From NCBI RefSeq assembly GCF_015234135.1, contig NZ_JADGIK010000002.1:248001-312000 (forward strand): a DNA stretch of 64,000 nt. The letters are read 5' to 3'. The stretch comes from Faecalibacter rhinopitheci. GTDB lineage: Bacteria > Bacteroidota > Bacteroidia > Flavobacteriales > Weeksellaceae. The notes under the pieces are model-generated. The model had not been told where the DNA came from, ran no database searches, and saw only the letters and a list, made by a program, of their open reading frames with translations. Both the position numbers and the translations under genes were made by a program. This document shows positions 39,007 through 63,594 of this stretch, one piece after another. Each line of letters opens with the position of its first letter. The stretch's first letter is position 1.

Positions 39007-39038
39007 CATTGAAATAACTGAAAATATAAATTAATTTT

Positions 39039-39122
39039 GCCTTGGTGGTGGAATTGGTAGACACGCAGGACTTAAAATCCTGTGCTCATTAGAGCGTGCG
39101 GGTTCAAGTCCCGCCTGAGGTA
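39039..39122 (+). tRNA. tRNA-Leu(TAA), variable-arm form A
   Basis: 84 nt class II tRNA. Anticodon stem CAGGA/TCCTG around CTTAAAA gives TAA. The long variable arm is GCTC-ATTA-GAGC. Acceptor GCCTTGG pairs with CTGAGGT, including a G1-U72 wobble; discriminator A73 is as required for Leu. No encoded CCA. Confidence 0.95.
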
Positions 39123-39153
39123 CTTTTTAAATTAATTTATTTTTTTCGATTCT

Positions 39154-39226
39154 GCGGGAATAGCTCAATTGGTAGAGCGTCAGCCTTCCAAGCTGAATGT
39201 TGCGAGTTCGAGTCTCGTTTCCCGCT
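39154..39226 (+). tRNA. tRNA-Gly(TCC)
   Basis: 73 nt. Anticodon stem TCAGC/GCTGA around CTTCCAA gives TCC. Acceptor GCGGGAA/TTCCCGC is fully paired. The same gene occurs five times in the window, all identical where I compared them. Confidence 0.95.
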
Positions 39227-39247
39227 CTAACTTTTTATAAGTTGGAT

Positions 39248-39331
39248 GCCTTGGTGGTGGAATTGGTAGACACGCAGGACTTAAAATCCTGTGTCCATTA
39301 GGACGTGCGGGTTCAAGTCCCGCCTGAGGTA
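39248..39331 (+). tRNA. tRNA-Leu(TAA), variable-arm form B
   Basis: 84 nt, identical to the Leu gene at 39039 except that the variable arm is GTCC-ATTA-GGAC, a paired (compensatory) change. Last gene of this tRNA operon; a hairpin terminator follows eight bases later. Confidence 0.95.
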
Positions 39332-39338
39332 CAAGGCT

Positions 39339-39375
39339 AAAAGCTCAAGAATTTATTTTCTTGGGCTTTTTTTAT
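39339..39375 (+). terminator. Terminator of the tRNA operon
   Basis: AAAGCTCAAGAA pairs with TTCTTGGGCTTT (one G-U), then T7. Confidence 0.85.
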
Positions 39376-39576
39376 GCAATATATTTAAAAAAAATAGATT
39401 CTATTACTACGCCTCAAATCTGCTATAGTATTAAAATCTATTTAATATTACAGCTAGAAATTATAAGAATCATATCCCAAAAAATAATTAAGGATAAATT
39501 CTTATAAATATTTTTAATTTTATTTTTTAGTAAATCAACAACTTAGATTTATAGCATAAAAAAATTTAAAGAAATG

Positions 39577-39609
39577 TTTGCAAATTCCATATAAATCATA
39601 GTATATTTG
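39577..39609 (+). promoter_or_regulatory. Promoter of the single tRNA-Gly
   Basis: TTTG at 39577-39580, a 21-base spacer and TATATTTG at 39602-39609, 11 bases before the tRNA. Same spacing as the promoter at 38891. Confidence 0.7.
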
Positions 39610-39620
39610 TCAAACAAATC

Positions 39621-39693
39621 GCGGGAATAGCTCAATTGGTAGAGCGTCAGCCTTCCAAGCTGAATGTTGCGAGTTCGAGTCTCGTTTCCCGCT
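39621..39693 (+). tRNA. tRNA-Gly(TCC), separate copy
   Basis: 73 nt, same sequence as the Gly(TCC) gene at 39154, but with its own promoter and terminator, about 290 bases downstream of the tRNA operon. The intervening 39376-39576 is AT-rich with no gene seen. Confidence 0.95.
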
Positions 39694-39700
39694 CTAAAGC

Positions 39701-39736
39701 AAAAAAGCTGAAGTTATTAACTTCAGCTTTTTTTAT
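39701..39736. terminator. Terminator, tRNA-Gly / PH-like gene
   Basis: AAAGCTGAAGTTATTAACTTCAGCTTT perfect stem with A and T runs; serves the tRNA and the convergent minus-strand gene. Confidence 0.85.
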
Positions 39737-39737
39737 T

Positions 39738-40211
39738 TTAAATCATTTTTATTTCTTCTGGATTGTCGCAACTGATATGCACTATTTGATTATTTTTAAG
39801 TTGGATTCTTAACGAATTAGATAAATCAGAAATATTGTAATACTCTTGCGATTGGAAAAGACTAATAAATCCTAAAATCCCTCTACTTCCTAATTTTAAA
39901 TTAAATAAATTAATAGGTACTTTTTTTATAGAATCTATTTCATTAAAATAAATTGTTCGAGAAAATACATAACTATTTAAAATATATCTGTCTTTATATA
40001 TTTCTATACTTCTATAACGAATAAGTAGAAAATAAATAAATAGTGCTAAGGCTAAAATACACACTATTAAACCTATTATATCTCCCTGCATCGCTCCATT
40101 ATTTAAAATCTTTTTTAAAGAGTTTAAACCATATGTAAGAAATATTAATACGTATATACTAGACAATAATACGAAGATAGGATGTAATGTTATATTTATT
40201 CGTTTTCTCAT
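39738..40211 (-). CDS. Membrane protein with bacterial PH-like domain
   Basis: 157 residues. Two transmembrane helices (about 10-30 and 42-64) are followed by a cytoplasmic beta-rich domain starting YRSIEIYKDRYILNSYVFSR, with IYFNEIDSIKKV and a closing LKNNQIVHISCDNPEEI. This is the pattern of small bacterial PH-domain membrane proteins, in which an arginine-framed strand pair follows two helices. Function is unknown. It lies between a tRNA and the DUF3817 gene on the same strand as the latter, but a terminator separates them. Confidence 0.65.
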   Translation of the reverse strand: MRKRINITLHPIFVLLSSIYVLIFLTYGLNSLKKILNNGAMQGDIIGLIVCILALALFIYFLLIRYRSIEIYKDRYILNSYVFSRTIYFNEIDSIKKVPINLFNLKLGSRGILGFISLFQSQEYYNISDLSNSLRIQLKNNQIVHISCDNPEEIKMI

Positions 40212-40238
40212 TTTATAAATTTTGTGGTAATTAAAGAT

Positions 40239-40279
40239 ACAAAAAAAGCTAGAAATTAAATTTCTAGCTTTTTTTTTAT
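40239..40279 (-). terminator. Terminator after the DUF3817 gene
   Basis: AAAAAGCTAGAAATTAAATTTCTAGCTTTTT, a long perfect stem with T run on the minus strand. Confidence 0.88.
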
Positions 40280-40280
40280 A

Positions 40281-40571
40281 TTAAGAATTGTATCTCTTTC
40301 CTTCTATGAGACGCTTATCTGCCCAGATTGTACCGCCAGGAATAATTGAAGCGACAAAAAATATTAAAAATATTTTCCACGACCAATTGTATTTATCTTT
40401 TAGAATATAAACCAAAACCATGTACAATACAAATAAAGCACCATGAGCACGTCCTATGTGCGTTACCCAAATCGGATCATTAAATATATATTTCATTGGC
40501 ATTGCAAAGAAAAATAATGCAATAGCCGAAAAAGCTTCTAAATAACCAATACCTTTAAAAAATTTCAACAT
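40281..40571 (-). CDS. DUF3817 family membrane protein
   Basis: 96 residues with three hydrophobic segments and the family signature: an N-terminal LKFFKGIGYLEAFSAI, a conserved HIGRAHGALFVLY in the middle, and a PGGTIWADKR close to the C-terminus. Members are small integral membrane proteins in many bacteria with no established role. It is a single-gene unit with its own terminator. Confidence 0.85.
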   Translation of the reverse strand: MLKFFKGIGYLEAFSAIALFFFAMPMKYIFNDPIWVTHIGRAHGALFVLYMVLVYILKDKYNWSWKIFLIFFVASIIPGGTIWADKRLIEGKRYNS

Positions 40572-40674
40572 TAACCTTAAATTTGTTTCAAAAATAAACG
40601 GTTTTATATATATTAAAAATGATTTATTATCATATATATTTATAAATCAATTATTTTACCTAAACTTAACATTG

Positions 40675-42291
40675 ATGATTCGATTTATTGCTCTATTTAT
40701 TTTCTTCTTTTGCACTTTTACACAAGCTCAAAAAATAAATGATGTATACAGATGGGATGAATCTAACAAGCGATATATTTTAGATTTTAAAACTAATAAT
40801 TTTTCTGAATCTTTAGATTCTTTAACTACAAATGGATTTTACACGCTACAAGTTGACTCTATTAGCAATCATAAAATTTATTTAAATAAAGGAAAAAATT
40901 ATAAAAAAATTTGGGTTAAGAATGAAGTACTCTTTAAAAATTCTGAATTTAATCCAACACACAATTTAGATTCTATCGTGTCGAAGTATATCGTAGAAAA
41001 TGAAAATAAAGGATACGCTTTTGTAAGTGTAAAAATAATTCCATTAGGATTAATGGAAAATGAACAAAAAATTGAACTAATTTTAAATACAAACGAAAGA
41101 AGAACAATTAATGCAGTAAAAAGTGTAGGATACACCAAACTATCCAAAGGATTTATAAAACATGGCTTAGGCCTTAAAAAAGATAGATTATACACTAACG
41201 AGAATATAAATCAGGCGAGTCAAATATTACAAAATACTAACTATATCCAGCAACTACAAGAACCACAAACATTATTTAGACCAGATTCTACCATTGTTTA
41301 CATTTATCCAAAGAAAGTAAAATCAAATATATTTGATGGAATTTTAGGGTTTGGAAACGACGATAACGGAAAATTTAAATTAAATGGTAATGTGATGTTG
41401 GAGTTGAACAATGTATTTAATGGATTGGAACAAATAAAATTAAATTGGATAGGAACTGCAACTAAAAATACTACATTAGATATTAAAGTTAGGCTACCCT
41501 ATTTATTTAAATCGCCCATTGGATCAGAAACACAATTCAAGTTATTTAAACAAGATTCTGTATTTGTAAACTTAGATTTAAACGAAAGATTATTCTATCA
41601 AATAAACACCAACTCTAGTATTGGAGCAAATTTAACTTATACCTCATCCAATTATTTATTAGATGATGCTTCGTTTGCATCAAACTATGATGATTTTAAT
41701 AAAACAGGTATAGGATTAAGTTATGAATATTTTCAAAAGCATCCCTTCCAACTCATGGAAGGTAAATCTCTTTTAAAACTTTTTGCTACATCGATTACCC
41801 GAAAAGAAAATAATTTTTCTTGGACAGAAGAATTGAGCAACAAAAAATCTCAACAATATGAAATTGGTTTAGAGACTTATCGCATTTTCCAATTGCATCA
41901 TAAGCATTATATAAAAGGTTTAGTCCAATTTAGGACACTTTTGGATGAAAATGATTATTATGCTGAAAACGAATTGTATAGAATTGGAGGATTTGGTAGT
42001 ATACGAGGTTTTAATGAAGAAAGTATTATTGCCAACTTATATGGAATTGGAAGTATTGAATATAGATTTTTACCCAATAACGGATTTTATATCAGCCTTT
42101 TTAGTGATTATAGTTTTATAGATAATAAAAGAATAGATCTAAATACAAATTTCTTGAGTATAGGTACTGGAATATCTTTTCTTACAAAACTTGGAATATT
42201 TAATTTGAGCTATGCTGTTGGTAAAACTGAAAATACATCTTTTGACTTTAATGACGCGAAGATACATTTTGGTATTTTAAGTCAATTTTAA
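40675..42291 (+). CDS. Omp85-type outer membrane protein, ShlB/FhaC-like
   Basis: 538 residues. The signal peptide is MIRFIALFIFFFCTFTQAQ. A periplasmic POTRA-like part runs to about residue 215, and a beta barrel fills the rest. The Omp85 loop-6 motif is IGGFGSIRGFNEE near residue 440, and the chain ends in phenylalanine. It is smaller than TamL and lacks a lipobox, resembling two-partner secretion pores (ShlB/FhaC) or minor Bacteroidota Omp85 proteins; there is no adjacent TpsA substrate. I use the ATG at 40675; the upstream TTG adds one codon only. Confidence 0.8.
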   Translation: MIRFIALFIFFFCTFTQAQKINDVYRWDESNKRYILDFKTNNFSESLDSLTTNGFYTLQVDSISNHKIYLNKGKNYKKIWVKNEVLFKNSEFNPTHNLDSIVSKYIVENENKGYAFVSVKIIPLGLMENEQKIELILNTNERRTINAVKSVGYTKLSKGFIKHGLGLKKDRLYTNENINQASQILQNTNYIQQLQEPQTLFRPDSTIVYIYPKKVKSNIFDGILGFGNDDNGKFKLNGNVMLELNNVFNGLEQIKLNWIGTATKNTTLDIKVRLPYLFKSPIGSETQFKLFKQDSVFVNLDLNERLFYQINTNSSIGANLTYTSSNYLLDDASFASNYDDFNKTGIGLSYEYFQKHPFQLMEGKSLLKLFATSITRKENNFSWTEELSNKKSQQYEIGLETYRIFQLHHKHYIKGLVQFRTLLDENDYYAENELYRIGGFGSIRGFNEESIIANLYGIGSIEYRFLPNNGFYISLFSDYSFIDNKRIDLNTNFLSIGTGISFLTKLGIFNLSYAVGKTENTSFDFNDAKIHFGILSQF

Positions 42292-42428
42292 TTTAAAAAT
42301 TGATAATTAATAATATTTATAAAAATAGGAATGATAAATTTTTAAAATTATTCTGAAAATATTAAGGTTATATTATAACTTTTTAATGAAATTAGCTACT
42401 CATTAAGCAAATCAAACATTAAATTAAA

Positions 42429-43622
42429 ATGCGTAAAATATTCTACCCTATTTTAGCTTCAGCTTTATTTATTGCTTCAGCTCAAATAGTAACTGCACAA
42501 GACAATCTAGTTAACTCATTAAACAAAAATGTAAGTACAAATGCTAAAGAATCATTTCAATTTACAGAAATTATTAATTTAGCTAAAACTCCTGTTCAGA
42601 ATCAAGGATCATCAGGAACTTGCTGGTCATATTCTGGGAATTCATTTTTAGAATCAGAAATGTTACGTATGGGGAAACAACCTGTACAATTATCTCAAAT
42701 ATTTGTAGCTCGTAATGCATACCAAGATCGTGCAGAGCAATATGTTAAAATGCATGGAAATTTAGCAATGGGCGAAGGAGGATTGTTTCATGATGTGCTT
42801 AATGCATACAAAAAATATGGAATGGTTCCTCAGGACGTCTATTCAGGTTTAAACTACGGTACGTCTAAAAATCAGTTTGGCGAAATGTCAGCTGCTATGG
42901 AAGGTTTCTTAAAAGGAATTGTATCTAATCCGAATGGAAAATTAACTTCTAACTGGAAAACTGCTTACGCTGGTATTATGGATGCTTATTTAGGAGCTTA
43001 TCCAAAAGAATTTACATACAACGGGAAAAAATATACACCTCGCACTTTTGCTGATGAAGTTGTAGGAATTAAGCCAGAAGATTATATTCCAATTTCTTCT
43101 TTTAAAAATGAAGAATTGTATAAACCTTTTACATTAATGATTCCAGACAACTGGGCATTTGGTCAATATTATAATGTACCGATGAATGATATCACAGGAA
43201 CAATTGACTATGCTTTAAAAAATGGATTCACTGTCGCTTGGGCACAAGATGTTTCTGAAAAATCTTTTTCATGGAAAAATGGAGTCGCTTACGTTCCAAC
43301 GAAAGATTTCGCGGATATGACAGCTGAAGAAAAAGCAGATATGTTTAATGGTCCAAAACCAGAGCGCGTAATTACGGAAGAAATGCGTCAAGAAGCGTTT
43401 GATAATTACGAAACAACAGATGACCATGGTATGCATATTGTTGGTTTAGCGAAAGATCAAAACAATAAAGAATATTATATTATCAAAAATTCTTGGGGAG
43501 CAACAAACGATTACCAAGGATATATGTATGTAACGAAAGCATATGTACAATACAAAACTTTAAATATATTGGTACATAAAAATGGTGTTCCAAAACAATT
43601 ACTAAAGAAAATAGGAAAATAA
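42429..43622 (+). CDS. Secreted papain-fold (C1) peptidase, bleomycin hydrolase-like
   Basis: 397 residues with a signal peptide ending VTAQ (about residue 24). The catalytic cysteine is C65 in VQNQGSSGTCWSYSG, with Q58 as oxyanion residue; the His is in DDHGMHIVG (about H333) and the Asn in IIKNSWG (N354). Spacing and the HGMHIVG/KNSWG pair fit the C1B (aminopeptidase C/bleomycin hydrolase) branch, though that branch is usually cytoplasmic. The signal predicts a periplasmic or exported enzyme. Two small lipoprotein genes face it directly downstream, one a chagasin-type inhibitor of this protease class. Confidence 0.9.
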   Translation: MRKIFYPILASALFIASAQIVTAQDNLVNSLNKNVSTNAKESFQFTEIINLAKTPVQNQGSSGTCWSYSGNSFLESEMLRMGKQPVQLSQIFVARNAYQDRAEQYVKMHGNLAMGEGGLFHDVLNAYKKYGMVPQDVYSGLNYGTSKNQFGEMSAAMEGFLKGIVSNPNGKLTSNWKTAYAGIMDAYLGAYPKEFTYNGKKYTPRTFADEVVGIKPEDYIPISSFKNEELYKPFTLMIPDNWAFGQYYNVPMNDITGTIDYALKNGFTVAWAQDVSEKSFSWKNGVAYVPTKDFADMTAEEKADMFNGPKPERVITEEMRQEAFDNYETTDDHGMHIVGLAKDQNNKEYYIIKNSWGATNDYQGYMYVTKAYVQYKTLNILVHKNGVPKQLLKKIGK

Positions 43623-43638
43623 ATATATTATTTTAACC

Positions 43639-43676
43639 AATAAAAAAGCATCTCTTAGGAGATGCTTTTTTATTGG
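43639..43676. terminator. Bidirectional terminator, C1 peptidase / lipoprotein
   Basis: AAAAAAGCATCTCTTAGGAGATGCTTTTTT, perfect arms, between convergent genes. Confidence 0.88.
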
Positions 43677-44107
43677 ATATGAATTTGTATTGTTTTTATT
43701 TTGTTAGAATTTTTCTCTTTAAAAGATACTTTTGCGTTACCAGCTTTCAACGCATGAAAAGTAAAATATTGCTTTCCATTAGCTTCCTTTTTTGGAGAAT
43801 CAATATCTGCTTCAAAACTTTCAGCAACATAATATAATTCTGAAACAATGTCAGATTCTAATTGCCATTGAAGTTCTTGCCCTTCTGCTTCAAAAACAAA
43901 CCCAAAATATTCTCCAAAATTTACATTAATTTCATTCTGCAATCCATTATAATAAATAACAGAATCTTTTTGGATAGATTGAGCACCTTTCTCATCGAAA
44001 ATATTTTCTTCAGTATTTTTGGTTGTACTAGCTTCTCCATTCTTATCTCCACAAGAAATAAAAATTAAAAATATTAAAAGTAAAGATGTGCAATAACTGA
44101 TTTTCAT
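43670..44107 (-). CDS. Small lipoprotein, possible divergent chagasin-like fold
   Basis: 145 residues. The signal ends in a lipobox (LLIFLIFISC, C19). The mature part is beta-rich: VNFGEYFGFVFEA, ELQWQLESD, QYFTFHALKAGNAKVSFKEK, and a final KTIQIHIQ. Order and length recall the I42 inhibitor fold, but the canonical NPxTGYxW loop is absent (EGQELQW in that place), so inhibition is uncertain. It is convergent with the C1 peptidase and follows the clearer chagasin-like gene on the same strand with a 45-base gap. Confidence 0.6.
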   Translation of the reverse strand: MKISYCTSLLLIFLIFISCGDKNGEASTTKNTEENIFDEKGAQSIQKDSVIYYNGLQNEINVNFGEYFGFVFEAEGQELQWQLESDIVSELYYVAESFEADIDSPKKEANGKQYFTFHALKAGNAKVSFKEKNSNKIKTIQIHIQ

Positions 44108-44152
44108 AGCATAAAATTAATCAAAGTATATTTACAAAAGTAGTTTAAACAA

Positions 44153-44545
44153 TTATTTTACAACAAATTTTAAACGTTTTGGATTCTTACTCTGACCTTC
44201 CCAACTTCTTGAGTAATCAAACTCTACAACACATTCACCAATTTGCTCGGCTTTCATTTCATATATTGCAACAATAGGAGCTCCCATCCTCCCATCATTA
44301 TAAATATTGCGTGAATCTTCTTTTTCCAATTTTACACTACAGCCAGAAGGAAAAGTAGTATTCCAATTATATCCCGTTGAAGGATTAGAACTAGCTTCTA
44401 TTTTAACAACCTCACCCAATTTCATATTAATGGTCATTTCAGAATCTACTTTATCTAAATCTACTATTGTTGACTTAGATGTTTTTGAAACAGCACAAGA
44501 AGTCATTAATACGGCTGCTGTAACTAATAATAATACTTTTTTCAT
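44153..44545 (-). CDS. Chagasin-type (I42) cysteine protease inhibitor, lipoprotein
   Basis: 130 residues. The signal with lipobox AAVLMTSC (C17) predicts a lipid-anchored protein. The three inhibitory loops of chagasins are visible: NPSTGYNW near residue 60, a central GRMGAPIV, and SRSWEGQ near residue 115. Chagasins plug the active site of papain-family peptidases; such a peptidase is encoded at 42429-43622. I take the ATG at 44545 (MKKVLLLV), because the longer start would put 19 residues before a perfect signal peptide. Confidence 0.82.
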   Translation of the reverse strand: MKKVLLLVTAAVLMTSCAVSKTSKSTIVDLDKVDSEMTINMKLGEVVKIEASSNPSTGYNWNTTFPSGCSVKLEKEDSRNIYNDGRMGAPIVAIYEMKAEQIGECVVEFDYSRSWEGQSKNPKRLKFVVK

Positions 44546-44632
44546 AGCTCTACCTTTGTATATATTAATTTTAACGATGAATAAATTTAAAACAAAAATC
44601 ATTCAATATGTTCAATTTCGGTTGGATTGAAT

Positions 44633-44640
44633 TAATTTTG
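44633..44640 (+). promoter_or_regulatory. -7 box for the FAD oxidoreductase gene
   Basis: TAATTTTG matches TAnnTTTG, 25 bases before the ATG at 44666. No clear -33 element. Confidence 0.4.
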
Positions 44641-44665
44641 TGTTCTTATCTTTTAGACAATAAAT

Positions 44666-46234
44666 ATGCCTCAAAACGTAACTATACGAATTTCTCCTGC
44701 AGAAGCTGCAAACGAAACTATTTTGAAACAACGTTTAGCAGTAGCTGCAAAAACAAAACCAGAAAATATTAATGCATACCAAATCATTCGCCGATCTTTA
44801 GATGCGAGAAGTAGAAATATTGTAACCCAGTTACAAGTAAATGTTTTTATACATGAAGAATTTTTTGATGCATTTGATTTTAATCCTAATTTACAAAATG
44901 TAGCGAATGCTCCAGAAGTATATATTGCTGGTGCGGGACCTGCAGGATTATTTGCAGCCTTAGAATTAATTGAACAAGGTTTAAAACCAATCATCATTGA
45001 ACGTGGTAAGAATGTAAGAGACAGACGTCGTGATCTTGCCGCTATGAATAAAGAAGGAATTGTAAATCCTGAATCAAACTATTGTTACGGAGAAGGAGGT
45101 GCCGGAACATATTCAGACGGAAAGCTATATACACGTTCTACAAAACGTGGAAATATCTTAAAATCATTACAATGGTTTGTACACTTCGGAGCAACAGAAC
45201 GTATTCTTCAAGAAGCACATCCACATATTGGTACTAATAAATTACCAGGGATTATCGCTAACATGCGAGAAGCAATTATTGAATGTCGCGGAGAAGTTTT
45301 ATTTGATACAAAATTAACAGACATCGTTATTGAAAATAATCAAATTAAAGGAATTGAGTTAAATAATGATACACGCATTAAAACCTCATCTTTAATACTA
45401 GCTACTGGACACTCAGCACGAGATATTTTTAGAATGTTGGATGCTAAAAAAGTATTAATAGAAGCTAAACCCTTTGCACTTGGTGTACGTATAGAACATC
45501 ATCAATCTTTGATAGATTCTGCTCAATACCATTGTTCTCCAGGAGGACAACGTAATGAATATTTACCACCTGCATCCTATTCTCTTGTCTCACAAGAAGC
45601 AGGACGTGGAGTTTTCTCTTTTTGTATGTGTCCTGGTGGTATTATCGCTCCTGCATCTACTGACGAAGGAGAATTAGTTGTAAATGGATGGTCACCCTCT
45701 AAACGTGATGGTTTCTTCGCCAATTCAGGGATGGTTGTTACAGTAGATGAAAATGACTTTGCTAAATATGGCTTTACAGGTCCATTAGCTGGAATGAATT
45801 TTCAGCAAATGGTAGAGAAAAAGGCATGGGAAGTAGGTGGAGGAAAATTAAAAGCACCTGCACAGCGTATGACTGATTTCGTAAAAGGTAGATTATCAAA
45901 CACCTTAAATGATAGCTCTTATCTTCCAGGGCTAACATCTGGATTATTAAGTGATGTTTTACCAAAAGAAATTCATAATTCTTTACAATTAGGTTTCCAA
46001 ACATTCGGAAAGAAAATGAATGGTTACTTTACTGAAGAAGCAAATGTAGTAGCAACAGAATCACGAACATCATCTCCTGTACGTATCCCTCGTAATGATG
46101 AAACATTGGAACATGTACAAGTTGCTGGTTTATTCCCTTGTGCCGAAGGTGCTGGTTATGCTGGTGGAATTATTTCTGCCGCAATGGATGGTGCTAAAGT
46201 AGCTATTGCAGTTAAAAACTTTTTAAATAAATAA
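44666..46234 (+). CDS. FAD-dependent dehydrogenase of the COG2509 type
   Basis: 522 residues. A short N-terminal domain with RRSLDARSRNIVTQLQVNV precedes the Rossmann nucleotide-binding motif VYIAGAGPAGLFAALELIEQ near residue 88. YGEGGAGTYSDGKLYTRS follows, then ILATGHSARDIF, and a C-terminal GGxxSAxxDG-like segment (AGYAGGIISAAMDGAKVA) closes the FAD site. This is the uncharacterised family often labelled FAD-dependent protein or NAD(FAD)-utilising dehydrogenase; the substrate is unknown. The fluoride-channel gene starts two bases after the stop. Confidence 0.9.
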   Translation: MPQNVTIRISPAEAANETILKQRLAVAAKTKPENINAYQIIRRSLDARSRNIVTQLQVNVFIHEEFFDAFDFNPNLQNVANAPEVYIAGAGPAGLFAALELIEQGLKPIIIERGKNVRDRRRDLAAMNKEGIVNPESNYCYGEGGAGTYSDGKLYTRSTKRGNILKSLQWFVHFGATERILQEAHPHIGTNKLPGIIANMREAIIECRGEVLFDTKLTDIVIENNQIKGIELNNDTRIKTSSLILATGHSARDIFRMLDAKKVLIEAKPFALGVRIEHHQSLIDSAQYHCSPGGQRNEYLPPASYSLVSQEAGRGVFSFCMCPGGIIAPASTDEGELVVNGWSPSKRDGFFANSGMVVTVDENDFAKYGFTGPLAGMNFQQMVEKKAWEVGGGKLKAPAQRMTDFVKGRLSNTLNDSSYLPGLTSGLLSDVLPKEIHNSLQLGFQTFGKKMNGYFTEEANVVATESRTSSPVRIPRNDETLEHVQVAGLFPCAEGAGYAGGIISAAMDGAKVAIAVKNFLNK

Positions 46235-46236
46235 TA

Positions 46237-46608
46237 ATGATAAAATCTATTATATTAGTTGGATTAGGAGGCGCTTTAGGAAGCATTTTACGCTATGTTG
46301 TAGGATTAGGAATCAAACAACTAGTAGCGACTTCTTTCCCCATTGCTACTTTTATAATTAATATAATAGGTTGTTTAATTATTGGATTATTATACGGAAT
46401 TTCTGAGAAAAATAATCTTGGAAATTCCGATTTAAATTATTTATTAATTATAGGATTTTGTGGAGGTTTTACCACATTTTCAACCTTTGCTAATGAGAAT
46501 TTTAATTTAATTCAGCAGCAAAATTTTATTACTCCTTTATTTTATATTTCATCCAGCATTATAATAGGAATCTTAGCAGTACGCCTAGGATATAAGATTA
46601 TAATCTAA
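46237..46608 (+). CDS. crcB: Fluoride efflux channel CrcB/Fluc
   Basis: 123 residues with four membrane helices. GGALGSILRYVVG near the N-terminus, INIIGCLIIGLLYG in the middle and GFCGGFTTFSTFANE near residue 75, which contributes the Phe and Thr/Ser fluoride path, are the family signatures. Fluc forms an inverted-topology homodimer. I do not see a fluoride riboswitch: the gene follows the FAD enzyme by two bases and shares its transcript. Confidence 0.94.
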   Translation: MIKSIILVGLGGALGSILRYVVGLGIKQLVATSFPIATFIINIIGCLIIGLLYGISEKNNLGNSDLNYLLIIGFCGGFTTFSTFANENFNLIQQQNFITPLFYISSSIIIGILAVRLGYKIII

Positions 46609-46674
46609 TTTCTTTCTATATTTTTTCTTTTAATAATAAATGAGTAATTTTAACGAACGCTTAAAAATTACTAC

Positions 46675-55486: not shown

Positions 55487-55508
55487 TTCTTCCTTAAGCT
55501 AATTTATC

Positions 55509-57080
55509 ATGGAAGAAAATAGTTTAGTTGAATATGGCTCTCGCCGTGTAATTATTACGATTACCGCCATCATGTGTGCCCTATTAGAAATTGTGGATAC
55601 CACAATTGTTAACGTGGCCATGAATGAAATGAAAGGTAGTCTCGGGGTTACACTTACAGATATTGCATGGGTGGTAACAGCGTATGCAATTGCCAATGTA
55701 ATCATTGTTCCCATGACCAGTTGGCTTTCACAGCAATTTGGTCGAAAAAATTATTTTGCAGTATCTATCGTAATTTTCACAGTAGCTTCATTCTTTTGTG
55801 GACAGTCGACAACCTTGTGGGAAATTATTTTGTTCCGATTCATTCAAGGTCTCGGTGGTGGTGCATTATTAGTAACTTCTCAAACAATTATTACAGAAAG
55901 TTACCCCAAAGAAAAACGAGGTATTGCTCAAGCTATCTATGGTATGGGTGTTATCGTTGGACCTACATTAGGTCCTCCATTAGGTGGTTTTATCATCGAT
56001 AACTGGTCATGGCCGTATATCTTTTATATTAATATTCCTATTGGGATTGTTGCTACATTACTAACCATCGGATTTGTTAAAAGTCCAAAATATGCAGAGA
56101 AATCTAGCTTAAGTCAAGTCGATTTTATCGGAATTATTCTTTTATCGGTTGCAGTAGGTGCTTTACAATATGTTTTAGAACATGGACAACAAGATGATTG
56201 GTTCGATAATACCGCAATTACTGTTTTATCCATTACAAGTGTGTTTTCTTTTATCTTGTTTGTTTGGAGAGAATTAGTTTTTGATCACCCCATCGTAAAT
56301 ATTCGTGTATTAAAGGATTCTAATCTTTTAGTGGGGACCATCTTATCCTTTATCTTAGGGTTTGGTCTATATGGTTCAACATTCGTTATTCCAATTTATA
56401 CCCAATCGCTATTAGGATGGACCGCGACCGATGCTGGTTTATTATTAGTCCCATCTTCATTGATGACGGCTTTTATGATGCCATTTATTGCCATCATGCT
56501 GCAAAAAGGAGTTTCGCCTAAATATTTAGTATCGGGTGGTTTCTTTATCTTTTTCGCGTATAGTTTCTGGTTCTTTAAAATCATGACACCAGATACAGGG
56601 ACTGAACATTTCTTCTGGCCTTTAATTATTCGTGGAATGGGATTAGGTTTATTATTCGTACCCGTAACTACGTTGTCTCTATCGACATTAGTAGGGAAAT
56701 CGATTGGTGAAGGTGCAGCATTCACCGGAATGTTCCGCCAATTAGGGGGATCTTTCGGTATTGCAATTATCACAACACTAATTTCTCGCTGGTCGGTACA
56801 ACACCGTGCGAATTTAGTGCCTAATCTTGATACATCAGATTTAGATGTTCAAAACAGAATCGTTGCTTTACAACAAAGTTTTATACAAAAAGGCTTTTCA
56901 GCCAATGAATCATTGAACAAGGCTTACCAAATTTTAGATGTTCAAATCATTAAACAAAGTACAGTGCTAACCTATATGGATATTTTCTTGTATTTAGGTG
57001 TACTATTCTTATGTTGTATCCCTTTTGTATTAATCTTCATTAAAAAAGGAGCAGGTAAAGTAGTTGATGTCGGACATTAA
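55509..57080 (+). CDS. DHA2 family (EmrB/QacA) multidrug efflux MFS transporter
   Basis: 523 residues with about 14 transmembrane helices. Early motif DTTIVNVAMNEM (residues 28-39) is the DHA2 signature, followed by WVVTAYAIANVIIVP, motif A GRKNYF and motif C GPTLGPPLGGF near residue 155. It exports drugs or other hydrophobic compounds by proton exchange and forms a tripartite EmrAB-TolC-like system with the two preceding genes. It ends the operon; a terminator follows. Confidence 0.94.
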   Translation: MEENSLVEYGSRRVIITITAIMCALLEIVDTTIVNVAMNEMKGSLGVTLTDIAWVVTAYAIANVIIVPMTSWLSQQFGRKNYFAVSIVIFTVASFFCGQSTTLWEIILFRFIQGLGGGALLVTSQTIITESYPKEKRGIAQAIYGMGVIVGPTLGPPLGGFIIDNWSWPYIFYINIPIGIVATLLTIGFVKSPKYAEKSSLSQVDFIGIILLSVAVGALQYVLEHGQQDDWFDNTAITVLSITSVFSFILFVWRELVFDHPIVNIRVLKDSNLLVGTILSFILGFGLYGSTFVIPIYTQSLLGWTATDAGLLLVPSSLMTAFMMPFIAIMLQKGVSPKYLVSGGFFIFFAYSFWFFKIMTPDTGTEHFFWPLIIRGMGLGLLFVPVTTLSLSTLVGKSIGEGAAFTGMFRQLGGSFGIAIITTLISRWSVQHRANLVPNLDTSDLDVQNRIVALQQSFIQKGFSANESLNKAYQILDVQIIKQSTVLTYMDIFLYLGVLFLCCIPFVLIFIKKGAGKVVDVGH

Positions 57081-57105
57081 TCTTGTAGATAATCAAACCT
57101 TATAC

Positions 57106-57140
57106 AAACACCTTCTATTCAGTTAGAAGGTGTTTTTTCT
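57106..57140 (+). terminator. Terminator after the efflux operon
   Basis: ACACCTTCTATTCAGTTAGAAGGTGT hairpin and T6. Confidence 0.85.
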
Positions 57141-57220
57141 ATAATTTATTCTGTTGAGAATTAATTTATCAAATATTGATATGATAGATTAATACAGATA
57201 ATTTTCCAGAGTAATTTCAA

Positions 57221-57257
57221 TAAAAAAACCTTCCAATAACTTGGAAGGTTTTTTAAA
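57221..57257 (-). terminator. Terminator after prfA
   Basis: AAAAAACCTTCCAATAACTTGGAAGGTTTTTT hairpin; T run on the minus strand. Confidence 0.85.
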
Positions 57258-57278
57258 TATGTTTATAAAAAGTATCGA

Positions 57279-58367
57279 TTAATAATCGTCTTCTCCTTTT
57301 AATTTTTCTGCGTTTTCTGCCATCTTCAATGCATCAATCATTTCTTGGATATCTCCATTCATAAAGTTATCTAAGTTATAAATCGATTTATTGATACGGT
57401 GATCCGTAATACGTCCTTGCGGATAATTGTACGTACGGATTTTAGCCGAACGGTCACCAGTTGATACTAATGATTTACGTTGGGCTGAACGCTCAGAGTG
57501 TTTTTTCTCAAACTCAATTTCATATAACTTCGTACGTAATAATTGTAATGCTTTTTCACGGTTTTTCAGCTGAGAACGCGCTTCTTGACACACGATAACA
57601 ATACCAGATGGTTTGTGCGTTAATTGTACTTTCGTTTCTACTTTATTTACGTTCTGTCCTCCTGCTCCTGATGAACGAGATGTTTGGTACTCTAAATCTG
57701 CTGGATTAATCGTTACATCCACTTCTTCTGCTTCTGGTAATACAGCTACCGTAATCGCTGAAGTATGTACACGACCTTGAGATTCTGTCTCAGGAACACG
57801 TTGCACGCGGTGAACACCAGATTCGTACTTCATTGTACCATAAACGGCATTACCTTCCACTTGCATAATAAGTTCTTTGAAACCTTTTCCTGAAGCTTCA
57901 GATGTATTTAACACTTCGTGTTTCCATCCTTTATCTTTAAAGTACATTGAATACATACGGTAAACGTCTTCTACGAAAATCGCAGCTTCGTCTCCACCTG
58001 TACCTGAACGTAACTCTACAATAACGTTTTTGTCATCTTCTGGATCTTTAGGGATTAACATCATTTTGATTTCTTCCTCTAAAGCCGGAATTGCATTAAT
58101 TGCTTCGTCTTTCTCTAGTTTTGCTAATTCAACCATCTCAGCATCAGAACCATCAGCGATGATTTCGTCTGCTTCTTCAATTGCATTAATAAAACCTTCG
58201 TACGTTTTTTGAATTTCAACGAAATCTCTAAGATCAGAGTATTCCTTATTTAATTTAGCATATCTTGCTTGATCCGTTACAATATCTGGTTGGATAATTA
58301 AATCCGCTACCTCATCGAAACGTTGTTTAATTGCTCTTAATTTATCTAATAGACCTAAATCTGCCAT
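57279..58367 (-). CDS. prfA: Peptide chain release factor 1
   Basis: 362 residues. RF1 reads UAA and UAG stops. The GGQ peptidyl-release motif is in [15 protein letters not shown] near residue 235; the stop-codon selector is PET in [16 protein letters not shown], the PxT form that separates RF1 from RF2 (SPF). [16 protein letters not shown] near 120 is conserved. The ATG at 58367 (MADLGLL) is used; a TTG two codons upstream is unlikely. A TATCTTTG promoter box lies 17 bases before the start. Confidence 0.96.
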
Positions 58368-58384
58368 AATCAATTATTGGTTTG

Positions 58385-58392
58385 CAAAGATA
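58385..58392 (-). promoter_or_regulatory. -7 box for prfA
   Basis: On the minus strand TATCTTTG matches TAnnTTTG, 17 bases before the ATG. Confidence 0.5.
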
Positions 58393-58420
58393 CAATATAT
58401 CAAGTGATTCAGAAAATTTG

Positions 58421-58456
58421 AATAAAAAAAACCGATGATTTCTCATCGGTTTTAAA
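58421..58456 (-). terminator. Terminator after glutamine synthetase III
   Basis: AAAACCGATGATTTCTCATCGGTTTT hairpin with A/T runs, in the gap before prfA on the same strand. Confidence 0.85.
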
Positions 58457-58483
58457 TTTAAATTTTATTTTTTTAGATACATA

Positions 58484-60667
58484 TTATCTTGTAAATAACA
58501 TTTCACGGTATTTTGTTAATGGCCATAAGTTATTATCGATTAATTCTTCTAACTCATCAGAGTGGTAACGAATCTCGTCGAATAATGGTTTAACAGTAGC
58601 TCCAAATGCTTCCGCTTGTGCTTGATGATCTTCTATTTCTTTTGCTGACTTAGCTGCAACAATTAATTGATCATTTGCTACTTTTATTGAATTGATGTGT
58701 GTAGAAATTACACGAATTAAATCCATTTGATCTTTTGCTAAATCTTTAAATTCATCACCAAAGATATCTTTTAATCCTTTCACATTTTTTACTAAAACAT
58801 TTTGATAATTAACAGCAGCTGGAATAATTTGTGAAGAAACTAAGTCAATTAAAACATTTGCTTCAATAGAAATTTTAGTAGAATATTTCTCTAATTTTAT
58901 TTCGTTTCGAGCTTCAACCTCACGAGCAGATAGAACACCTGTTTTCTCATAAACTTCAATATATTTAGGATCTAATTCTAATTTTAAAGCTTCTGGAGTG
59001 GTTTTATAGTTATTTAATCCACGAACTTCTGCTTCTTCAACCCAGTTATCAGAATATCCGTCCCCTTCAAATAAAACATTTCTAGACGATTTAATATATT
59101 CTCTTAATACATTAAATATTGCTTCATCTTTAGATAAACCATTTTCAATTAATGCATCAACTTCTTCTTTAAAATCTTTTAACTGTTGTGCTACAATTGT
59201 ATTAATAACAGTCATAGTTTCTGCACAGTTTGCAGATGATCCTACGGCACGAATCTCAAACTTGTTACCTGTGAAAGCAAATGGAGAAGTTCTATTACGA
59301 TCTGTATTATCTAATAAAATTTCTGGGATTTTACCAACAACATTTAATTTTAAATCAGTTTTTTCTTCTGCCGATAATTTTCCTTCCGTTACTTTTTCTA
59401 ATTCGTTTAAAACGTTTGTTAATTGAGATCCAATGAAAATAGAAATAATAGCTGGTGGTGCTTCATTAGCTCCTAAACGGTGATCGTTACCTGCTTCTGC
59501 AATTGCAGAACGTAACATATCTCCATATTCAGAAACAGCTTTGATTGTATTAACGAAGAATGTTAAGAATTGTAAATTTTTCTTTGGATTTTTACCTGGA
59601 GATAATAAGTTTTCACCTGTATCTGTAGATAAAGACCAGTTATTATGTTTACCTGATCCATTTACTCCTGCAAAAGGTTTTTCGTGTAATAATACTTTAA
59701 AATCATGTTTCTTAGCAATACGCCCCATCAAATCCATTAATAATGAATTGTGGTCAACTGCTTGGTTAGCCTCCTCAAACATTGGAGCACACTCAAATTG
59801 ATTTGGAGCAACCTCATTGTGACGTGTTGTAATTGGAATACCTAATTTCATAGATTCCACTTCTAAATCTTGCATATAAGACATTACACGCATAGGAATA
59901 GCTCCGAAATAGTGATCATCTAATTGTTGCCCTTTCGCAGGAGAATGTCCTACTAAAGTACGACCAGTCATTTGTAAGTCTGGACGAGAATTATATAAAT
60001 GCAAATCAACTAAAAAGTATTCTTGTTCCCACCCTAAAGTTGATTGTACTTTTGTTACATTTTTATCAAAATACTTTGCAACTTCTGTTGCTGCTTCGTC
60101 TACTGACTGTAATGCTCTTAATAAAGGTACTTTATAATCTAATGTTTCACCTGTATAAGAAATAAAAACAGAAGGTATAAATAATGTAGTACCTATAATA
60201 AATGCTGTAGAAGTTGGATCCCAAGCTGTATATCCGCGCGCTTCAAATGTATTACGGATTCCTCCATTTGGGAATGAAGATGCATCCGGTTCTTGTTGTA
60301 CTAATGCAGTCCCCTCAAAAGTATCTATTGCACGACCATCTTCAGTAGGTCGGAAAAATGAATCATGTTTCTCAGCAGTTGTTCCTGTTAATGGTTGAAA
60401 CCAGTGTGTAAAATGTGTAGCTCCTTTAGAAATAGCCCAATCCTTCATTGCAGAAGCAACTTGGTCTGCAAATTCGCGTGGTATTTTAGTTCCTTTTTCT
60501 TTAGAAGCAATAATTGCTTTAAAAGCGTTTTTTGGTAAATATTCACGCATTGTATCGTAAGAAAAAACGTTCTCATTAAATAATTGAGAAAGTTTTTTAT
60601 CAATAACAATTTTCTCTGCTTGCTTATTAACAGATTTTTCTAATGCTTTAAAACGTAATGTAGACAT
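58484..60667 (-). CDS. glnN: Glutamine synthetase type III
   Basis: 727 residues. It makes glutamine from glutamate, ammonia and ATP. The length, the N-terminal ISKGATHFTHWFQPLTGTTAEKHDSF, the metal site in FTGNKFEIRAVGSS, and the ATP-binding KHNNWSLSTDTGENLL are typical of GSIII (GlnN), which forms double hexamers, rather than the short GSI/GSII. It is the main ammonia-assimilating enzyme in many Bacteroidota. The upstream region has a TATTTTTG box and a GC-rich palindrome at 60724-60741, which are candidates for nitrogen control. Confidence 0.96.
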   Translation of the reverse strand: MSTLRFKALEKSVNKQAEKIVIDKKLSQLFNENVFSYDTMREYLPKNAFKAIIASKEKGTKIPREFADQVASAMKDWAISKGATHFTHWFQPLTGTTAEKHDSFFRPTEDGRAIDTFEGTALVQQEPDASSFPNGGIRNTFEARGYTAWDPTSTAFIIGTTLFIPSVFISYTGETLDYKVPLLRALQSVDEAATEVAKYFDKNVTKVQSTLGWEQEYFLVDLHLYNSRPDLQMTGRTLVGHSPAKGQQLDDHYFGAIPMRVMSYMQDLEVESMKLGIPITTRHNEVAPNQFECAPMFEEANQAVDHNSLLMDLMGRIAKKHDFKVLLHEKPFAGVNGSGKHNNWSLSTDTGENLLSPGKNPKKNLQFLTFFVNTIKAVSEYGDMLRSAIAEAGNDHRLGANEAPPAIISIFIGSQLTNVLNELEKVTEGKLSAEEKTDLKLNVVGKIPEILLDNTDRNRTSPFAFTGNKFEIRAVGSSANCAETMTVINTIVAQQLKDFKEEVDALIENGLSKDEAIFNVLREYIKSSRNVLFEGDGYSDNWVEEAEVRGLNNYKTTPEALKLELDPKYIEVYEKTGVLSAREVEARNEIKLEKYSTKISIEANVLIDLVSSQIIPAAVNYQNVLVKNVKGLKDIFGDEFKDLAKDQMDLIRVISTHINSIKVANDQLIVAAKSAKEIEDHQAQAEAFGATVKPLFDEIRYHSDELEELIDNNLWPLTKYREMLFTR

Positions 60668-60696
60668 TGTATTAGTATGTATTTTGTTTGATAAAG

Positions 60697-60722
60697 CAAA
60701 AATAAAACAAAATTTAATACAA
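60697..60722 (-). promoter_or_regulatory. Promoter of glnN
   Basis: On the minus strand: TTG at 60720-60722, a 15-base spacer, then TATTTTTG at 60697-60704. The spacer is slightly shorter than the 17 bases seen for rpmH. Confidence 0.5.
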
Positions 60723-60723
60723 C

Positions 60724-60741
60724 CCCCTAATTTTTTAGGGG
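60724..60741 (-). promoter_or_regulatory. GC-rich inverted repeat upstream of glnN
   Basis: CCCCTAA-TTTT-TTAGGGG has perfect 7-bp arms just upstream of the presumed -33 box. It stands out in an AT-rich intergenic region and could be a regulator site. It is not followed by a T run on the minus strand, so it is not a terminator. Confidence 0.4.
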
Positions 60742-60807
60742 TATGTATAAATAATTATCAAAAATAAATTATAACCCTACTAATATGCATGCGTAGATTT
60801 GATAAAT

Positions 60808-60847
60808 AATAAAAAAAGCTGCTTTAGAAATCTAAAGCAGCTTTAAG
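60808..60847 (-). terminator. Terminator after the DUF4293 gene
   Basis: AAAGCTGCTTTAGAAATCTAAAGCAGCTTT hairpin; T7 on the minus strand. Confidence 0.88.
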
Positions 60848-60870
60848 CGCACATATAAAAGTTGTTGGTC

Positions 60871-61284
60871 TTATCTGAATCTATCTACAGATTTCACAAG
60901 GTCATCATCCTTTTTGATCAAACGATTGGCAATTGACAGTAAAACAATCGAGATTAAAGGAACTAATGCCCAAATACCCTTCTCAGAAATATTTTCTCCA
61001 GGTAAATTTAGTAGACTAAATAAGAAAGAACCAATTAATAAAATATTCAAAATAATATTTAACCCTCCTAATAACATTTGAAATTTTCTGTTTTTGAAAA
61101 TTAGGATTGCAATAAATGATAAGAATGCTGAAAAGAAAAATGCAATACTAAAAATTATATTTCCTTTTTCAGGATCAGATAAAAAATTTAAAGTAAAATT
61201 AAATAATTTATCAAAATTTATAGCCATCAACATTGAAATTAATCCGGCTAGAAATAAGTAAATACTTTGTTTTCTCTGAATCAT
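60871..61284 (-). CDS. DUF4293 family membrane protein
   Basis: 137 residues with four hydrophobic helices. The start MIQRKQSIYLFLAG and the end ANRLIKKDDDLVKSVDRFR are characteristic of DUF4293, a Bacteroidota family commonly found beside rho. No function is known. Here it is divergent from rho and shares an upstream region of about 165 bases with it. Confidence 0.88.
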   Translation of the reverse strand: MIQRKQSIYLFLAGLISMLMAINFDKLFNFTLNFLSDPEKGNIIFSIAFFFSAFLSFIAILIFKNRKFQMLLGGLNIILNILLIGSFLFSLLNLPGENISEKGIWALVPLISIVLLSIANRLIKKDDDLVKSVDRFR

Positions 61285-61449
61285 ATCTTAAAATTCGTAC
61301 ACAAATGTATGATTTTTTTTTACTTTTTGCAAGAAATTCGTACTATTGCATATAAATACTTTATAACCACATCATTTACAGTATAAAATATGATTGTTCT
61401 CAATCATATTCCTTTCGTAAAATTCAAAATACCTTACTTATATAGGATT

Positions 61450-63138
61450 ATGTCAGACATAGATATTAAATCATTAAAATTACCAGCACTTCAAGATCTT
61501 GCTCAGCAGCTTAAAATTGAAAATTTTAAGAAATTAAAGAAAAATGAGTTATTAGATGCTATTTCCTCTTTTATCGAAAAACAACCTTTAGCAACACCAG
61601 CTAATAAAGTAGATGAAAATAAAGTAGATGAAAATAAGGAAGCAAAAAATACTATGCCAACCGAAGAGAAAAAATCTAAAAGAAAACGTGTAACTACTCC
61701 TGAAGAAGATAAGGTTGAAGAAACAAAACATATTGAAGCTATAACAGAATCTGAATCTACGTCAGAGGAAACTTCAGTAAAGACCAATAAGCAGCCTCGT
61801 AAATCTGAAACAACTGTGGAAAATGATAGTTCAGAAGTAACTACTCCAATAGAACAAGAGAAAAATATCCGCACGAATAATCCGAGACAACAAAATAAAA
61901 ATCAGAATCCTAATCAAAATCGAAAGGTTAATCCAAACCAAAATCGAAACAATAATTCTGATCAACCTCAACAAAATCATCACCATCAACAAAAAAATAA
62001 ATATCGAGCTGCAAACTATGAGTTTGACGGAATTATAAAAACTGAAGGTGTTCTAGAAATATTACCAGATAACAATTATGGATTTTTAAGATCATCAGAT
62101 TTTAACTATTTATCTTCTCCAGATGACGTATATGTATCACAATCTCAAATTAGATTATTTGGTTTAAAAACCGGTGATACAATTACAGGAGAAGTAAGAC
62201 CTCCGAAAGAAGGTGAAAAATATTTCCCATTAATTAAAATCATTGAAATTAATGGTCGTACACCAGATTATGTTCGAGATCGTATTGCATTTGAACATTT
62301 AACTCCTCTTTTTCCAAACGAAAAATTTAATTTAAATCAATCTACAGCGTTATCAAATCGTGTTATAGATCTTTTTGCTCCAATCGGGAAAGGTCAACGT
62401 GGTATGATTGTAGCCCAACCAAAAACAGGTAAAACATCTTTACTAAAAGATATTGCTAATGGAATTGCACAAAATCATCCAGAAGTATATCTAATTGTTT
62501 TATTAATTGATGAACGTCCTGAAGAGGTAACCGACATGAAACGTTCTGTAAATGGTGAAGTAATTGCATCTACATTTGATGAGGAAGCTTCTCGCCATGT
62601 AAAAGTTGCAAATATTGTTTTGGACAAAGCAAAACGTATGGTAGAGTGTGGACATGATGTTGTTATCCTATTAGATTCAATCACACGTTTAGCTCGTGCA
62701 TACAATACTGTTTCTCCTGCTTCAGGAAAAGTATTATCTGGAGGAGTTGATGCAAATGCATTACACAAACCAAAGCGTTTCTTTGGTGCTGCTCGTAATA
62801 TAGAAAATGGAGGTTCACTAACAATCATTGCTACTGCGCTAATAGATACAGGATCTAAAATGGATGAAGTAATTTTCGAAGAATTTAAAGGTACTGGTAA
62901 CATGGAGTTACAATTAGACCGTAAAATTGCTAACAAGCGTATCTTCCCAGCTATCGACTTAGTAAATTCATCAACGCGTAGAGATGATTTATTATTAGAT
63001 GATGCTACTCAACAGAGAATGTGGGTTTTAAGAAATCATTTATCGGATATGAATCCTGTAGAAGCTATGGAATTCTTACATTCTCGTATTAAAAATACAA
63101 GAGATAATGATGAATTTTTAATTTCTATGAATAAATAA
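61450..63138 (+). CDS. rho: Transcription termination factor Rho
   Basis: 562 residues. A SAP-like N-terminal domain (residues 1-45: [30 protein letters not shown]) is followed by a long disordered insert (about 50-185), Glu/Lys/Thr-rich first and then Asn/Gln-rich ([16 protein letters not shown]). The RNA-binding OSB domain ([16 protein letters not shown]) and ATPase core follow: Walker [21 protein letters not shown], and [15 protein letters not shown]. Bacteroidota Rho proteins often carry such inserts. The ATG at 61450 (MSDIDIKS) is used; a 20-residue upstream extension in frame lacks family similarity. Confidence 0.95.
61606..61635 (+). repeat. Short tandem repeat inside rho
   Basis: Two copies of a 15-base unit, GTAGATGAAAATAAA with one change, encode [10 protein letters not shown] in the disordered insert. 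It could vary in copy number without breaking the frame. Confidence 0.6.
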
Positions 63139-63159
63139 TAAGATCCATTTCTTACAATA

Positions 63160-63197
63160 TTATATCCATCTTGATTATCAAGATGGATTTTTTTTGA
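63160..63197 (+). terminator. Terminator after rho
   Basis: ATCCATCTTGATTATCAAGATGGAT hairpin and T8. Confidence 0.88.
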
Positions 63198-63225
63198 ACG
63201 TAAATCATTTATAAAACTATAACGC

Positions 63226-63262
63226 ATAAAAAAAGCCCAAGAAAATAAATTCTTGAGCTTTT
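63226..63262 (-). terminator. Terminator of the minus-strand tRNA array
   Basis: Same hairpin as at 39339-39375, reversed: CTCAAGAA/TTCTTGGG stem and T7 on the minus strand. Confidence 0.85.
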
Positions 63263-63269
63263 AGCCTTG

Positions 63270-63353
63270 TACCTCAGGCGGGACTTGAACCCGCACGTCC
63301 TAATGGACACAGGATTTTAAGTCCTGCGTGTCTACCAATTCCACCACCAAGGC
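63270..63353 (-). tRNA. tRNA-Leu(TAA), form B
   Basis: 84 nt, the last gene of the minus-strand array, matching the gene at 39248 base for base. Anticodon loop CTTAAAA; variable arm GTCC-ATTA-GGAC. Confidence 0.95.
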
Positions 63354-63374
63354 ATCCAACTTATAAAAAGTTAG

Positions 63375-63447
63375 AGCGGGAAACGAGACTCGAACTCGCA
63401 ACATTCAGCTTGGAAGGCTGACGCTCTACCAATTGAGCTATTCCCGC
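63375..63447 (-). tRNA. tRNA-Gly(TCC)
   Basis: 73 nt, matching the gene at 39154. Anticodon loop CTTCCAA; fully paired acceptor stem. Confidence 0.95.
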
Positions 63448-63478
63448 AGAATCGAAAAAAATAAATTAATTTAAAAAG

Positions 63479-63562
63479 TACCTCAGGCGGGACTTGAACC
63501 CGCACGCTCTAATGAGCACAGGATTTTAAGTCCTGCGTGTCTACCAATTCCACCACCAAGGC
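63479..63562 (-). tRNA. tRNA-Leu(TAA), form A
   Basis: 84 nt, matching the gene at 39039, with variable arm GCTC-ATTA-GAGC. Confidence 0.95.
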
Positions 63563-63594
63563 AAAATTAATTTATATTTTCAGTTATTTCAAAG

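Follow-up and report, generated by a model that had tools for sequence, protein, structure and literature searches.

Facing tRNA-Leu/tRNA-Gly arrays as probable arms of an inverting 24-kb chromosome segment in Faecalibacter

The genome of Faecalibacter rhinopitheci contains, in the stretch of 64,000 nucleotides analysed here (the window; positions 248,001 to 312,000 of contig NZ_JADGIK010000002.1), two arrays of tRNA-Leu(UAA) and tRNA-Gly(UCC) genes that face each other across a 24-kb segment, and in some related species this segment lies in the opposite orientation. Judging from the comparison of genome sequences, it is very likely that the arrays serve as the arms of an inversion by homologous recombination, with gene conversion and occasional crossovers between them. 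Gene conversion would tend to keep the arms alike, as seen in four of the six genomes that can be tested, and an occasional crossover inside the arms would turn the segment round and leave alternative gene orders between species. The homology of the arms and the position of the crossover point to recombination of the RecA type. A flip would cut no coding gene and would leave each tRNA gene with its upstream DNA, and we assume that it is harmless, because transcription would enter each arm from outside and stop at the inner hairpin. The flips are presumably rare events that became fixed along lineages and not a switch. The mechanism is of an ordinary, known kind, and the natural case is unusually clean, with tRNA arrays as the arms.

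The comparison covers 14 genomes of the genus with one assembly per species, namely that of the window (G000, a 44-contig draft of 2.89 Mb, in which the window is G000:C12:248001-312000 on a contig of 475,823 bp) and 13 relatives (G001 to G013), with G001, G008 and G009 as single contigs. The features of the window that are needed for the argument are the following.

37961..38845, plus strand: accD, the fixed left outer flank (TIGR00515 above cut-off)
38934..39007, plus strand: tRNA-Gly(GCC), outermost gene of the accD-side array, just past accD; the same gene is outermost in the sister genus
39007..39377, plus strand: left arm (accD side), consisting of spacer, tRNA-Leu(UAA), tRNA-Gly(UCC), tRNA-Leu(UAA) and terminator; 370 of 371 positions identical to the right arm
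39039..39123, plus strand: tRNA-Leu(UAA) 1 of the left arm
39154..39227, plus strand: tRNA-Gly(UCC) of the left arm
39248..39332, plus strand: tRNA-Leu(UAA) 2 of the left arm, counterpart of the gene where the G001/G006 crossover is placed
39339..39370, plus strand: terminator hairpin that closes the left arm on its inner side (-16 kcal/mol, z -4.2), with a run of T after it and a mirror copy at about 63231-63262
39378..63223, no strand: segment S, invertible, 23,846 bp, which is the distance between the arms; opposite orientation in G001 and G003
61390..63138, plus strand: rho, the right-end marker of segment S (TIGR00767 above cut-off)
63224..63594, minus strand: right arm (rho side), the left-arm block in reverse according to the arm alignment
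63269..63991, minus strand: right array within the window, seven genes in the order Leu-Gly-Leu-Gly-Leu-Gly-Leu

The first-pass annotation of this DNA had described a near-perfect inverted tRNA repeat of 370 bp with one difference at 39008, and realignment confirmed it: position by position, 39007-39377 matches the reverse complement of 63224-63594 over 371 positions without a gap, the only mismatch being an A against a T at 39008. The two arms are thus long inverted copies, identical over 369 bp (39009-39377 and 63224-63592), and this perfect match cannot be extended by even one base at either end. A looser match of 461 nucleotides with 23 mismatches spans 38933-39393 and 63208-63668; identity drops beyond the perfect block because the two sides differ in the tRNA-Gly that comes next outward, GCC on the left but TCC on the right. 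Apart from a local match at about 3,500, all exact inverted 25-mers of the window link the same two tRNA regions, and the inverted repeat is therefore not a product of chance. A search of the whole assembly with the block returned the same two sites, G000:C12:287007-287377 on the plus strand and 311224-311592 on the minus strand. Both arms belong to inward-facing tRNA-Gly/tRNA-Leu arrays; the right array comprises eight tRNA genes in total, the eighth (Gly) lying past the window edge with its start at C12:312023, and the window holds 12 tRNA genes. The sequence of the inner hairpin can be recognised in each of the 19 aligned arms.

Gene order around accD and rho in relatives, which had been proposed as a check, shows that the inverted order is present and ends inside the arrays. 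We scored on gene maps which end of S adjoins each array, counting across extra arrays and across block X, an additional gene block described below. On the side of the ABC-F gene, next to what we take to be gldKLMN, the array adjoins rho in nine of the 14 genomes (G000, G002, G004, G005, G006, G008, G011, G012, G013) and the DUF3817 end in three (G001, G003, G009); in the remaining two, G007 and G010, the contigs end in or by the array and this junction was not assigned. On the accD side the neighbour is the DUF3817 end in nine genomes (G000, G004, G005, G006, G007, G008, G010, G011, G013), rho in G001 and G003, S without the DUF3817 block in G012 and a shortened S in G002. Two genomes (G001, G003) are therefore flipped at both junctions and G009 at one. 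Both orientations thus exist with breakpoints inside repeats at both ends in G001 and G003, the placement at base level being confined to G001/G006. The architecture and the inverted order between species support the earlier proposal that recombination between the arms could invert S without breaking a gene.

An assembly artefact, in which one arm was misassembled or S was joined arbitrarily between identical arms, has to be considered here, as short reads alone cannot set the orientation across the 369 identical base pairs of the draft G000 assembly and the contigs of G007 and G010 end in or beside the arrays. However, both arrays with unique flanks are found across the genus, also in G001 and G008, two single-contig genomes with different orders of S. 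In addition, the arms of G001 and G006 differ at several bases, and the switch of markers at one place inside the repeat is unlike a random join. We consider an artefact very improbable.

This switch of markers emerged from the comparison of G001 with its sister G006. In a blastn comparison the outer blocks are collinear, the block between the arrays is inverted, and the two overlap within the arrays only. In a four-way alignment of the arms, variable sites were assigned to the outer flank or to the inner end of the segment, depending on which of the two they go with. Throughout the outer flank and the outermost tRNA-Gly, every assigned site goes with the outer flank. The arm itself has two more such sites, located in the first Leu-Gly spacer and one base ahead of tRNA-Leu 2, and the next assigned site, 6 bases past tRNA-Leu 2, goes with the inner end; one site inside the arm follows the genome instead. 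A single crossover within about 90 bp containing tRNA-Leu 2 would suffice to explain these markers, with modest resolution because only three sites inside the arm are informative.

The flips look independent of each other, three on the best reading of the gene orders and two of them seen at both ends. The corresponding test was modelled on a Streptococcus study (PMC6437910) and used a tree of 14 concatenated proteins (with gaps for some genomes) as well as separate trees from genes inside and outside S. A Fitch count on three trees gave three changes on the ABC-F side and two on the accD side with rho|ABC-F as the root state; unassigned junctions, including three outgroups on the accD side, were coded as unknown, and G022 was coded rho on the ABC-F side with rho about 10 kb from gldN and ABC-F not found in the stretch examined. 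In the tree of genes inside S, G001 groups with G006 (support 100), G003 belongs to the other clade and G009 stands apart. Thus the inside-S trees do not unite G001, G003 and G009, which argues against a single flipped segment that was spread by transfer.

Both arrays occur throughout the genus. The block is found as a single match over at least 340 of its 371 positions in 13 of the 14 genomes and over 220 in G004, and tRNA genes of both arrays are present in all 14, the ABC-F side of G007 being represented by one gene at a contig end. In the two sister-genus genomes examined (G040, G060) an array follows accD only, and rho adjoins ABC-F with no tRNA gene between them. The simplest reading is therefore that an ancestor of the genus acquired the second, facing array.

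Nevertheless, the arms are often more alike within a genome than between genomes. Six genomes have a long arm on both sides, and in four of them the arms group by genome in the arm tree: G000 (95), G008 (96), G009 (99) and G013 (99). Spacer identity within the genome amounts to 125/125 positions in G000, 119/120 in G008, 113/114 in G013 and 110/115 in G009, and spacers at the same position in G000, G001, G006 and G008 agree between genomes at 104-114 of 124-131 positions; this between-genome comparison covers these four genomes, and the G013 and G009 pairs were judged by the arm tree. Most simply, this likeness would represent concerted evolution by gene conversion, acting unevenly. The first-pass annotation had left the choice between a recent duplication and a gene-converted pair. 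Gene conversion seems the better explanation, as the arrays occur genus-wide and the arms group by genome in four of six genomes, and a recent duplication is at odds with finding both arrays in all 14 genomes. That the second array was only copied recently and is identical because it is young would agree with the 125 identical spacer positions of G000; the tRNA genes of both arrays in the relatives and the within-genome spacer match of four genomes make this explanation hardly credible.

Several observations weigh against this account of inversion and gene conversion between the arrays. The arms of two of the six genomes, G001 and G006, do not group by genome, and their spacers (114/124 and 109/126) have no clear within-genome excess over the values between species; homogenisation has therefore not been constant. 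Within the arm the crossover is placed by three markers, two outside it and one inside it, and in the unique, diverged DNA beyond the arm 8 columns are linked to the inner end, 4 to the outer flank and 4 to the genome, a majority of only 8 to 4 for the inner end. Deep branches differ between the trees and are weak, and the inside-S tree places the sister genus within the ingroup with a support of 47. The flipped junction of G009 lies 14 kb from ABC-F, neither end of S adjoins the accD side, and the accD end and the rho end, the latter without an array, are separated by about 1.3 Mb, assuming a circular contig. Breakpoints away from tRNA arrays exist in this region in G002, G009, G011, G012 and G013: the DUF3817 block has been relocated inside S in G012, S is split in G011 and lies on two contigs in G013, and part of S is absent from the stretch examined in G002.

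If S were a phase-variable switch, it would flip often, populations would be mixed and the expression of the end genes (rho, DUF3817) would be altered. The perfect arms would be a good substrate for such a switch, and inversion at natural repeats reaches a detectable frequency in the hsdMS case of Staphylococcus aureus (PMC6778178). However, G000, G006 and G008 share one order from which G001 differs, which fits rare events although it is compatible with switching too, and the hairpin closes both arms, so that transcription from outside would not be expected to enter S. A switch of this kind therefore seems unlikely. The suggestion of the first-pass annotation that populations could be mixed in orientation may hold all the same.

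Inversion at specific sites by a dedicated recombinase would also yield inverted repeats around a segment whose orientation varies between relatives. Yet no recombinase is found among the arm-edge genes examined (accD, DUF3817, DUF4293, rho, a UDG-family gene and ABC-F), the rest of the genome not having been searched, or among the 20 proteins scanned, a subset of the window's open reading frames (ORFs) that includes the identified genes next to both arms. Furthermore, the arms are 369 bp of tRNA genes with the crossover at one of these genes; they are thus unlike the short inverted sites of an inverton or shufflon, and no cognate recombinase is nearby among the proteins scanned. We regard such a system as extremely improbable. 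A genomic island integrated at tRNA genes is not supported, as S holds prfA, rho and other genes common to the sister genus and no integrase is among the proteins scanned.

From the accD side, S contains an unnamed ORF, DUF3817, a POTRA-domain protein, a C1 peptidase, an I42 inhibitor, a flavin adenine dinucleotide (FAD)-binding enzyme and crcB, followed by an M16 peptidase, an HhH protein, DUF2851, tetR, tolC/emrA/emrB-like efflux genes, prfA, glnN, DUF4293 and rho. Matches above curated cut-offs were obtained for DUF3817, POTRA (barely), the C1 peptidase, I42, M16, HhH, DUF4293, prfA, rho, an EmrB-type permease and, for the emrA-like gene, an RND-type adaptor; those of the FAD enzyme and glnN stay below the cut-offs, and the names crcB, DUF2851, tetR, tolC, FAD enzyme and glnN are our presumed assignments. 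The ORF at the left inner edge (39738-40211) has no Pfam match. It is preceded by one further feature.

39621..39733, plus strand: solitary tRNA-Gly(UCC) (39621-39694), then a terminator-like hairpin up to 39733

We read this feature as the remnant of a third, middle array, since G002, G004, G005, G010 and G011 have three-gene arrays in the same place. Its hairpin was the one terminator-like site found by a pattern scan, against 0.7 expected by chance; the scan did not list the hairpin at 39339..39370. A scan for sigma-70 promoters gave two sites against 3.2 expected, and no promoter is claimed. In 15 genes of the window TTA accounts for 473 of 667 Leu codons and GGA for 225 of 472 Gly codons, a codon use that would fit a dosage role for the Leu(UAA) and Gly(UCC) tRNAs.

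A third array is also present in the more complex gene orders. G004, G005, G010 and G011 have a second array between accD and S, 14-16 kb away from the first. The DNA between arrays, block X, was read in four genomes.

G004 237770-252300 (L070-L071): block X
G005 2905900-2922043 (L066-L067): block X
G011 2666590-2680735 (L073-L074): block X
G012 191806-206474 (L054): block X

In G005, the genome in which the families were checked, block X includes cobalamin-pathway genes (DBI_PRT/CobT-type, CobS, histidine phosphatase), a large sensor kinase and a transposase gene, and the order is accD, array, block X, array, segment S, array, ABC-F. In G012 block X is inverted and located between the rho-side array and a further array before ABC-F, and most of S is collinear with G005. 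Worked out by hand, this order is the exact product of two successive inversions among three arrays, with excision and reinsertion as an alternative. It is conceivable, if rather doubtful, that whole gene blocks are shuffled by recombination at the tRNA arrays, which would then act as a hub of three sites. The DUF3817 block of G012 moved without an array at its new site, which means that not every rearrangement here uses the arrays; at 181.9-186.6 kb (L053) the DUF3817 - POTRA protein - C1 peptidase block now adjoins prfA.

Further variation was observed in the same regions. Shorter versions of block X with cob genes are, by reading, present in G002, G007, G009 and G013. The 14 kb between the array and ABC-F in G009 (G009:C1:2163650-2178297, L063-L064) encode an IS21-type transposase and IstB according to Pfam, and ORFs that read as Rhs-like, the one scanned being without a Pfam match; six weak matches to the DnaA profile in this genome resemble IstB copies. 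The glnN gene of S (window 58484-60667) occurs in two full-length types, one with 86-94% identity to that of the window (G001, G002, G003, G006, G008, G009, G013) and a second with 65% identity (G004, G005, G007, G010, G011, G012), as if one type had been replaced.

Strand composition was tried as a clock for the flips, with the skew calculated by module in eight genomes and bootstrapped in four. In G000 the skew of S (-0.17) has the same sign as that of the flanks (-0.21), and in G001 it is +0.13 in its own frame with flanks of -0.21, the sign expected after an old flip, the interval including zero in either case. The values of G003 (-0.02) and G009 (S +0.16, gld flank +0.13) are ambiguous. 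As the bootstrap intervals of S include zero in all four genomes and the flanks of G001 and G006 differ too, this approach was rejected as evidence for frequent as well as for rare flipping. The sampled GC skew of G001 and G008 changes sign near 0.9-1.05 Mb and not at dnaA; dnaA was therefore dropped as a marker of the origin, orientation relative to the fork was not used, and the origin may not be beside dnaA in this genus. In G008 the accD-S-gld region (G008:C1:330001-385000, L044-L046) has a skew opposite to most neighbouring samples, which suggests a larger, separate inversion.

Inversion by homologous recombination between repeats is known from other systems. The inverted tuf genes of Salmonella are a similar case, as near-identical copies homogenise each other and can invert the DNA between them; according to PMC8262849, recombination ends in inversion in at most a quarter of events, and in 8% (5/59) with test cassettes. 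In our case, by comparison, tRNA arrays of about 370 bp flank a segment of 24 kb, and the flipped orders are found between species. Inversions at rRNA operons, e.g., in Streptococcus, likewise use multi-copy stable-RNA genes as recombination sites: those of S. mutans fall within rRNA and adjoining tRNA regions (PMC2907686), and there are examples of parallel inversions with rRNA clusters or mobile elements at their ends (PMC6437910). In contrast, the arrays described here contain tRNA genes without rRNA and the segment is short. The hsdMS system of S. aureus shares near-perfect inverted repeats, and there too crossover points and repeated flips can be read from marker bases (PMC6778178). Its repeats of 1,748 bp turn round 1.42 Mb, its subpopulations have been measured and inactivation of recA is reported to have no effect, whereas our case consists of sequences only. 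Among the papers listed, mostly from outside subscription journals, no title or abstract opening describes an inversion between bacterial tRNA arrays.

In a wider set of relatives, 79 loci were listed as the best matches to rho, with 66% for the best match of nearly full length and up to 79% over shorter stretches. Among these loci, several of which are truncated by contig ends, Gly or Leu tRNA genes beside rho are limited to a tRNA-Gly(UCC) in L126 and a tRNA-Leu(GAG) in L111. In L153 a tRNA-Leu(GAG) lies about 9 kb off on the other side of rho. A convergent tRNA-Glu(UUC), sometimes two, is located downstream of rho in 21 of these 79 loci (L076-L154, among the matches listed), and a facing tRNA gene behind rho is thus no rarity among them, although the tRNA is a different one.

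Short-read assemblies should not be relied on for the gene order between such arrays. The genus offers a natural case in which tRNA arrays, and not rRNA operons or insertion sequences, set the breakpoints of an inversion. One segment has apparently been flipped more than once independently, a crossover has been placed at one tRNA gene, and the spacers beside it are homogenised in most of the testable genomes. The link between gene conversion and inversion becomes measurable on a short, defined substrate. If exchanges such as those among three arrays persist within populations, clusters that provide tRNA dosage would double as hot spots setting gene order.

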